NCBI GenBank assembly: GCA_015062685.1
Contig: SUUE01000011.1
Span: 1-64,000, forward strand
Direction of reading: 5' to 3'
DNA from: Coriobacteriaceae bacterium
GTDB lineage: Bacteria; Actinomycetota; Coriobacteriia; Coriobacteriales; Eggerthellaceae
Length of the DNA: 64,000 nucleotides
Part shown: one piece after another, positions 35,122-37,287 of the stretch
Position numbering within the stretch: position 1 is the stretch's first letter
How the letters are laid out: every line of letters begins with the position of its first letter
The notes under the pieces: model-generated
What the model was told of the DNA's origin: nothing
Database searches by the model: none
The model's input: only the letters and a program-made list of their open reading frames with translations
Program-made: the position numbers and the translations under genes

Positions 35122-37287
35122 TTATGCCAGCTTGAATCGCAACCGCGAAGTGCGCCTATCGGCTTCCACGAGCCGCACGGCGACGCGCTTGCCCAAGCGG
35201 TACTGCTTGCCCGTATCAGAACCAGTGAGCGTATGACGCACGGAATCGAGCACGAAGTACTCGCGCCCCAGATCCGCAATATCCACCATGCCCTCCGCCG
35301 TATTGTCCAGGCGAACGAACATGCCGTATGGAGCGACGCCGGCTACCACCGCTGAGAACGTCTGGCCGAGGCTGAGCTCCATGAGCTCGACGATCTTCGC
35401 CTCCTGCGAATCGCGGGCCGCGCGCTCGGCCGCGCGCTCCATCTCGGAGCAATGCTCGGCGATCCAGGGAATGCTCGATGTCTCCTGGTCGAACTTCTCG
35501 GGCCTCTTCCCCAACGCCGCCTTGAGCATGCGATGCACGACGAGGTCTGGGTAGCGTCTGATGGGCGAAGTGAAATGGCAGTACGCCTCGCTCGCCAGCG
35601 CGAAATGCACATCGAGCTCAGGCTCGTAGACCGCCCTCTTCATCGACCTCAACACGAGCGTCGTCACGAGCGTTCCCTCGTTCCTGCCCTCGCAAAGGGA
35701 AAGCACCTTCGCTATCTCGTGTGGGTTGCCGGCGACGAACCGATCGACCGAGATGCCCTTGAACCAGGGGAACTCCTGCAGCACGGGAACGAGCCCCTCG
35801 AGGCTCTCGCGCGACGGCTTCTCGTGCACGCGGAATATGCCGGGGAAGCCCGCATCGCGCAGGAAACGCGCGACGGCCTCGTTGGCCGCGATCATGGCCT
35901 CCTCGATGAGCTGCGTCGCATCGGTACGCGAACGCAAGACGATGTCGACGGGCACTCCCTCGCCATCGAGTTTGACCTTCGCCTCCACCGTATCGAAATC
36001 AAGCCCTCCAGCAGCCTCGCGCAGCCTCATCCGCTGCTTCGCAATGCCCGAGAGCCTTTGCACGCGCCAAGCAATCTCACTTGCAAGCGCGGCGTGCTCA
36101 GCCACTTCCTCACCCTCAATAAGCCGCTGCGCCTGCCCATAGGTAAGCCGTGCATTGGAACGGATGAGCGCGGGATATATATCGACATCAACGACTTCAC
36201 CCGCATCGTTCACGAGCATGTCCACCGTCATCGTCCGCCGCACCTCGTTGGGCTTGAGCGAGCAGATATCGTTGGAAAGCTCTTCGGGCAGCATGGGAAT
36301 CACGCGATCGACGAGGTAAACGCTCGTGGCCCTACGGCGCGCATCGAGGTCCACCGAAGACCCCCAGGGCACATAATGCGCCACATCCGCAATATGCACC
36401 CCCACGCGCCAATACTTCTCCTCAACCCCCTCAGCCGAGTCAGCGCAGGAATCGGATCCGCCGTCGGCCAAGCGGAGCGAGGCCAAGCCAAAGGAGGAGC
36501 GAGACCCACTTGCCTGCCCGCCCTCGGCAGGCAAGTTAGCTCGCGACGACGACGCGTCGAGCGCAGCTTGGCCGACGGCGGATCCGATGCCGGCCGGCAC
36601 CAACACAGCCTCAATCGACACCGCATCATCGAAATCGCGCGCATCATCCGGGTCAATCGTAAACACGAAGCGGTCGCGCAAATCGCGGTAGCCGCTCGAC
36701 AGCGCCGCGTCTTCATCAACGCGCGCATCCGCCGCCTGCGCAAGCGCCGCTTCCGAGAACGCCGTCTCGAATTTGTAGCGCGCGACGATCAAGTCGATGG
36801 GCACGCGCTCGTCGTCCGCATCCCCGAGCACCTCGACGACGCGACCGGTGGCCGCCTCCTTGTTCGATGGATACGTGACCATCTCGACGCGCACGATGGA
36901 TCCGTCGGGTATGTCGGAATTTTCCGCGAGCATGGTGAAGATGTCGTAGGGTATGCGTGGGTCTTCGGGCACCACCACCCCGAAAGGCTCGGCATGCTCA
37001 AACCGGCCCACTATTGAGGCGTGTGCATGCTCTATAACGCGCTTTACGCGAGCCTCGCGCTTCTTGGTGGATTTCGCCGCCCGGGCGAGCGCCTTACGCG
37101 AGCGTTCCTGACGTGCAGGGGAAATTTCCACGAGGTCGCCGTCAAAAGCGCCGTTCATCCTGTCCGCAGGGATGTAGAACTCGCCCTCGGCGGTCTCAAC
37201 GAAGCCGTAACCGCCGGGAGAGACCTGAAGCGATCCACGAGGATACGAGCGCGGGGCGCCGCGCGTGCCTGAACGAGAGCGGCCCAT
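35122..37287 (-). CDS. rnr: Ribonuclease R with in-frame palindromic insertion
   Basis: A 721-residue RNase II-family 3'-5' exonuclease. It has N-terminal cold-shock-like domains, an RNB catalytic domain, and a C-terminal S1 domain ([21 protein letters not shown]). The catalytic segment [15 protein letters not shown] supplies the Mg-binding aspartates. About 65 extra residues separate it from the next conserved segment, [16 protein letters not shown], where homologues have about 10-15. Much of this insert is encoded by an inverted-repeat element (36451-36588). The frame is intact, so activity is probably retained. The start [10 protein letters not shown] at 37287 lies 7 bp after the ctpA-like stop. 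Confidence 0.94.
   Translation of the reverse strand: [721 protein letters not shown]
36451..36588. repeat. Palindromic element inserted in frame within rnr
   Basis: Perfect 23-bp outer arms (36451-36473 and 36566-36588) enclose a second perfect 11-bp hairpin (36508-36536). The total length is 138 bp, exactly 46 codons. Next to the left arm is AGCGGAGCGAGG, nearly the same as the AGCGGGAGCGAGG at the core edge of the intergenic elements at 3390 and 58966. This suggests membership of the same family. The encoded peptide is Ala/Gly/Ser-rich and likely a surface loop. Confidence 0.85.

Follow-up and report, generated by a model that had tools for sequence, protein, structure and literature searches.

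The gene for ribonuclease R (rnr) in this Eggerthellaceae genome carries a long DNA palindrome within its catalytic-domain region, which raises the question of what the palindrome is and how the reading frame accommodates it. A sequence-only reading of the window, the stretch of 64,000 nucleotides analysed here, had described perfect 23-bp arms around a nested 11-bp hairpin and had proposed the in-frame insertion of a palindromic repeat family. Both the arms and the hairpin are present at the positions given there, far beyond chance, and the frame is indeed unbroken, with the rnr open reading frame running through the palindrome. The features of the locus are as follows.

35122..37287, minus strand: rnr, ribonuclease R, 721 aa, the element's host gene, with RNB, CSD2, OB_RNB and S1 domains
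36445-36448, plus strand: GCAG, the would-be GYAG tag of the rnr copy, at the outer end of the left-arm extension
36451..36473, plus strand: left outer arm (P1), locus-specific, with an imperfect extension beginning at 36445
36472..36567, plus strand: core-1 repeat, 96 nt, the portion common to about 40 copies in the genome
36485..36496, plus strand: conserved unpaired motif AAGCCAAAGGAG
36497..36503, plus strand: 5' strand of P2, GAGCGAG, pairing with CTCGCGA at 36540-36546
36508..36536, plus strand: P3 hairpin, a perfect 11-bp inner hairpin with arms at 36508-36518 and 36526-36536
36566..36588, plus strand: right outer arm (P1'), with an imperfect extension up to 36594

The perfect 23-nt arms (36451-36473 and 36566-36588) can be lengthened to 34 nt at 88% (36445-36478 and 36561-36594). 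The chance expectation for 23-bp arms no more than 150 nt apart in 64 kb is about 6e-7, and the fold z-scores of the palindrome, as RNA and as DNA, lie between -7.4 and -8.9. Single-sequence folding energies, RNA or DNA, did not tell the two strands of the element apart. A plain protein loop, self-complementary in its coding sequence by accident, is a reading of the palindrome to which loop length lends something, as the motif across this turn of Rnr ranges from 31 to 111 residues among relatives. The arm probability and the presence of this core in roughly 40 non-coding copies already refute that reading, however, and we give it practically no weight. Nor did distant relatives show the same codons free of palindromy, the case that the sequence-only reading had named as fatal to its proposal.

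When the rnr segment was used to search the whole genome, it matched about 40 separate places at 75-90% identity, and these matches were limited to the central ~96 bases (query 43-138). The repeated unit is this 96-nt core, 36472-36567, and the outer arms belong to the rnr locus alone. The proposed insertion of a repeat family is thus borne out, but the arms lie outside the repeated sequence, which was invisible from the window. The copies that we fetched are all built on the plan GYAG - outer arm - core - outer arm - GGAC, with arms (median 22 bp) that are nearly perfectly self-complementary and differ in sequence locus by locus. In the genome itself the foot shows GYAG near the 5' base in 25 of 37 copies and GGRC near the 3' base in 29 of 37, against a background of 8-10%; in the rnr copy GYAG has degenerated, and several other species do not retain it. 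Among 105 copies parsed from this and related genomes, 104 are intergenic and the sole intragenic one is that in rnr. The family therefore occurs both between and within genes, as had been suggested, and the proposed search for other reading frames with the palindrome gave the ~40 core matches but no second intragenic case among the 105. Many core-1 copies lie no more than about 20 nt from a stop codon, and sense and antisense orientations relative to genes are about equal in number (32 and 37).

An alignment of 40 diverse core-1 copies revealed three covarying main stems: P1, formed by the arms, P2 and P3. Paired cells made up 89%, compared with 29-46% when the partners were slid, and double-change cells numbered 257, compared with 73 +/- 9 in shuffles. 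Pairing in the outer arms reaches about 94%. P1 and P2 are separated by conserved non-standard pairs (G.A, A.G and tandem G.A/A.G), which 34-38 of the 40 copies retain. Mismatches in P1 are G.T far more often than A.C (42:14, p = 0.0002; 31:7 once similar arms are removed), while those in P3 show no G.T excess (3 G.T, 5 A.C). The tandem G.A pairs and the G.T excess in P1 show that one particular strand is the folding unit; in the rnr copy this structured (G.A) strand is the plus strand, antisense to rnr. In the rnr copy, P3 departs from its usual sequence at three pairs, each of them compensated, so pairing has survived despite the coding constraint. The core also contains fixed unpaired motifs, AAGCCAAAGGAG, ATCCACT, AGTTAG and GACGACGCG, whose invariance spans Eggerthellaceae and a Lachnospiraceae genome.

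The predicted structure of the protein matches RNase R (8cdu, 5xgu). The motif across the turn has 92 residues here and 31-40 in most relatives, and the alignment of relatives' Rnr agrees with the earlier statement that homologues have only a short loop, since most of them are without the ~57 residues in question. The sequence-only reading had counted the 138-bp palindrome as 46 added codons; the palindrome is real, but it is not a measured insertion length, the loop being up to ~61 codons longer than in uninserted relatives. In the AlphaFold model the insert has a pLDDT of about 30-57, below 50 for residues 236-266 and 276-286, and is flanked by confident strands (221-231 and 289-300). The ~57 residues encoded by the element (232-288) are thus predicted to be disordered, at a beta-hairpin turn of the RNB domain. 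In the nearest relative, G014, the rnr contig stops short of the loop and so gives no borders for the insertion. Two other members of the genus, G012 (L060) and G007 (L061), have a different hairpin element, in frame, at the same turn. Together with the core-1 element here, this means that hairpins of different families have entered the turn at least twice. Survival in frame needs no special explanation, as two to four of the six frames are open in 34 of 39 core-1 copies. It seems probable that the element landed antisense and in frame at this surface beta-turn, where it would be read as a disordered loop, and that it persists because the turn tolerates added residues and most copies happen to have at least two open frames.

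Pairs of copies in this genome with identical 72-nt cores have arms that are just 20-43% identical, and arm identity stays at about 0.37-0.43 regardless of core identity. Terminal arms that are unlike at every locus cannot be the ends recognised by a sequence-specific transposase. This bears on the reading of core-1 as a classical MITE, double-stranded DNA moved by a DDE transposase via terminal inverted repeats. The terminal arms are inverted repeats and the copies are short, non-coding and numerous, as that reading would have it, but no terminal inverted repeats are family-wide and the best empty site (L030, below) shows no target-site duplication, and we consider it very improbable.

P3 varies little among the copies of this genome but differs in other species, which suggests that the whole core has been homogenised or has spread recently. 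We rejected the idea that selection alone conserves the resident cores, as P3, although free to covary between species, is near-uniform within the genome. Four different loci (L029, L030, L032 and L018) have feet and arms in common, which suggests that arms can travel. The core of L018, however, is unlike those of the other three and identical to those that L021 and L027 carry on unrelated arms, and at three of four loci shared with G014 a core picked at random from G014 is at least as close as the orthologous one. Taken together, cores appear to have been exchanged between loci. At one shared locus (L012/L143) the arms are still recognisable and their differences, judged by eye, compensated.

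Two further observations concern rearrangement. At L126 (CACWWI/RUG10972, 4444-4820) partial duplicated fragments (AAGCCAAAGGCAGTCTCTCGAAGAAGG) adjoin a core-1 copy with imperfect arms, and these are possibly an intermediate of arm rearrangement. When L174 (C35:20500-40400) is compared with G014 contigs C4 and C31, synteny switches contig and strand at a core-1 copy near L174:5675, a possible recombination between inverted copies.

Close relatives differ in which sites are occupied. The L030 site measures about 24 bp in G014 and 187 bp, including the element, here; the element is also absent from G014 at the L045, L026 and L037 sites, where the borders are less exact. No target-site duplication is visible at L030, the best empty site, and the other sites are not alignable to the base. 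Deletion in G014 may be the alternative to gain here. A further candidate empty site, L112 compared with L019, was rejected as L112 has a core-4 element there. Some insertion sequences target REPs, and the core might likewise hop into the tips of pre-existing hairpins, the arms being target DNA. Finding several cores on one foot, and identical cores on unrelated arms, is what such hopping would produce. We nevertheless think it unlikely: no core-free long GYAG hairpins were present in the 299 kb scanned, G014 has no palindrome at L030, and L029, L030 and L032 share arms and feet at different loci.

The copies, then, are dispersed and mostly intergenic, fold on one strand, vary in presence between close relatives, and carry near-identical cores on unrelated, locus-specific arms. 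With modest confidence, we read the rnr insert as a copy of a non-autonomous, high-copy, REP-like hairpin element of Eggerthellaceae, core-1, probably spread by a Y1 transposase in the form of folded single-stranded DNA, with its arms kept matched and its cores homogenised. A TnpA-REP-like Y1 enzyme would recognise the fold together with a basal GYAG tag; TnpA-REP itself works on REPs that are single-stranded and folded, with strand specificity, and can depend on the GTAG tag (PMC8266576). The arms would move with the element and then drift, yet remain matched through replication template switching, which can make paired changes in one step (PMC8794818), and/or through selection for the hairpin. 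Gene conversion may exchange and homogenise cores between loci, which would account for identical cores on unrelated arms. REPs also show an about even orientation to genes, with intragenic cases documented (PMC3733652).

The genome has two Y1 transposase (Y1_Tnp) genes, at C12:47673 and C22:181060, and in L047/L048 no core-1 copy was seen beside them. Y1 genes occur in about 8 of 10 element-positive relatives, compared with 23 of 51 element-negative ones, and G008, a 96%-complete genome that is element-positive through degenerate copies, has no Y1 gene. The co-occurrence of core-1 and Y1 is weak, too loose for assigning an enzyme. The degenerate GYAG foot, the missing G.T excess in P3 and the lack of a clean target site or exact boundary at the sites read likewise speak against the REP-like reading.

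An exact pattern scan of GTDB genomes returned only Eggerthellaceae-type records and Candidatus Equihabitans merdae, a member of the Lachnospiraceae (Bacillota), which has ten covariance-model matches, five with the fixed motifs directly visible. Of 397 genomes from the order, 28 had covariance-model hits, and 27 of those belong to the same family. Adlercreutzia sp. ZJ176 is a cultured carrier. In G361, a complete genome from another genus, there are 24 core-1 places; P3 is lost in that genus. In 18 of these 24 copies the folding strand is opposite to fork direction, a count confounded by the copies being mostly antisense to genes; the origin was located from a weak skew and a dnaA-like motif where the record begins. 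Searches of plasmids, phages and viral contigs gave no core-1 match, and an Rfam 15 scan of the window and nine copies gave no family hit to the element, not even at E <= 1.

These results frame the main rival to the REP-like model, that the core is a transcribed functional structured RNA (regulatory, ribozyme-like or protein-binding) whose dispersal is secondary. Unpaired motifs that are fixed across two phyla fit an RNA or protein-binding function and count against the REP model, since they go beyond what a REP transposase is known to require. The wobble excess in P1 is of the G.U type, and tandem G.A motifs are typical of RNA internal loops, but G.T and tandem G.A are stable in single-stranded DNA too. 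Against an RNA function, sense and antisense copies are about equally common overall, with an antisense bias in G361 (10:2); the rnr copy lies antisense to its host gene, close relatives differ in whether the element is present, and there is no Rfam family match. We regard an RNA function as possible, though doubtful.

The REP-like reading can be set against known systems. Like GTAG-REPs and REPINs (RAYT/TnpA-REP; PMC3733652, PMC3116915, PMC8266576), core-1 elements are short, high-copy, mostly intergenic hairpins near gene 3' ends, with a putative GYAG tag at the 5' base among members of this genus, a strand-specific fold and an occasional in-frame gene insertion, genes of DNA/RNA metabolism included. 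REP stems, however, are 6-13 bp with a family-wide sequence, in units of 20-40 bp, whereas the core-1 stem is about 22 bp (to 45), locus-specific, and bears a structured core of 50-96 nt; REPs are mobilised by RAYT, and here the RAYT link is putative. The sequence-only reading had cited Rickettsia palindromic elements as precedent for repeats tolerated in frame within protein genes. As an analogy this stands, by description and not by RPE sequence, although the taxon is another, intragenic insertion is here the exception (1/105), and intragenic GTAG-type REPs are closer (PMC3733652). Insertion of a palindromic repeat into a gene is an already known kind of event. Hairpins maintained by template switching (PMC8794818) resemble core-1 in how perfect stems would be made and kept via paired changes, but that is a mutation process, not an element family, and would apply to core-1 by extension. 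Structured RNAs in Rfam similarly have covarying stems and fixed unpaired nucleotides, but the copies tested match no Rfam 15 model. Perfect inverted repeats inside protein genes are also described for nematomorph mitochondria (PMC6649704); the likeness lies in the palindromes themselves, and the setting there is mitochondrial.

Other hairpin families occur in the window.

3388-3554 and 58965-59148: family-2 elements, core GGGAGCGAGGACTGTCTGAGCGAGCGAAGCGAGCGAGTTCCGCAGCTGCT with a tandem-G.A-like apex, a second dispersed family of about 13 copies
48111-48253, minus strand: palindrome with a further core, CTTACGCAG...GAGTATGCCG, and 46-bp perfect arms
about 31468-31570: a fourth hairpin family, AGCGAGG-arm-GGTGCCCNAGATTG...CAAGATNGGGTGCC-arm-CGCAGCGTCGA

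The family-2 elements had been thought to be possibly the same repeat as that in rnr. They do share G.A-rich building blocks and long locus-specific arms (up to about 45 bp), and one copy (L182) has the core-1 foot, GTAGC...GCGGAC, but their core is different. The 48111-48253 palindrome has the foot of rnr-type elements, GTAGC...GCGGACAG, and a related core lies at L183:1288-1404. The fourth, dispersed family is the one found at the Rnr turn in G012 and G007. A separate palindrome at 53849-53960 has 38-bp perfect arms and no GYAG foot; a full-length 86% copy, arms too, lies at L013:3173-3283.

Tentatively, core-1 may exemplify a new class of structured mobile elements: an apical core, conserved yet exchangeable and of several non-homologous types on one GYAG...GGAC foot, would sit on arms that are free in sequence and always matched; the core would then be an undescribed functional single-strand motif in two bacterial phyla. 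A search of the literature on Eggerthellaceae or Adlercreutzia repeats found nothing relevant, and in the literature and databases searched neither the element family, nor its core in two phyla, nor the uncoupling of its arms appears to have been described.

The covariation in core-1 is among the stronger such signals one can meet. Many copies with one core and independent arms amount to a natural experiment on stem matching, setting template switching against selection, and how long stems stay matched is an open question in the evolution of RNA and DNA hairpins. As rnr illustrates, a conserved enzyme can take up such an element close to its active-site motif and stay unbroken. With 10-40 copies per Eggerthellaceae genome, core-1 has gone unannotated in bacteria that are common in the gut.
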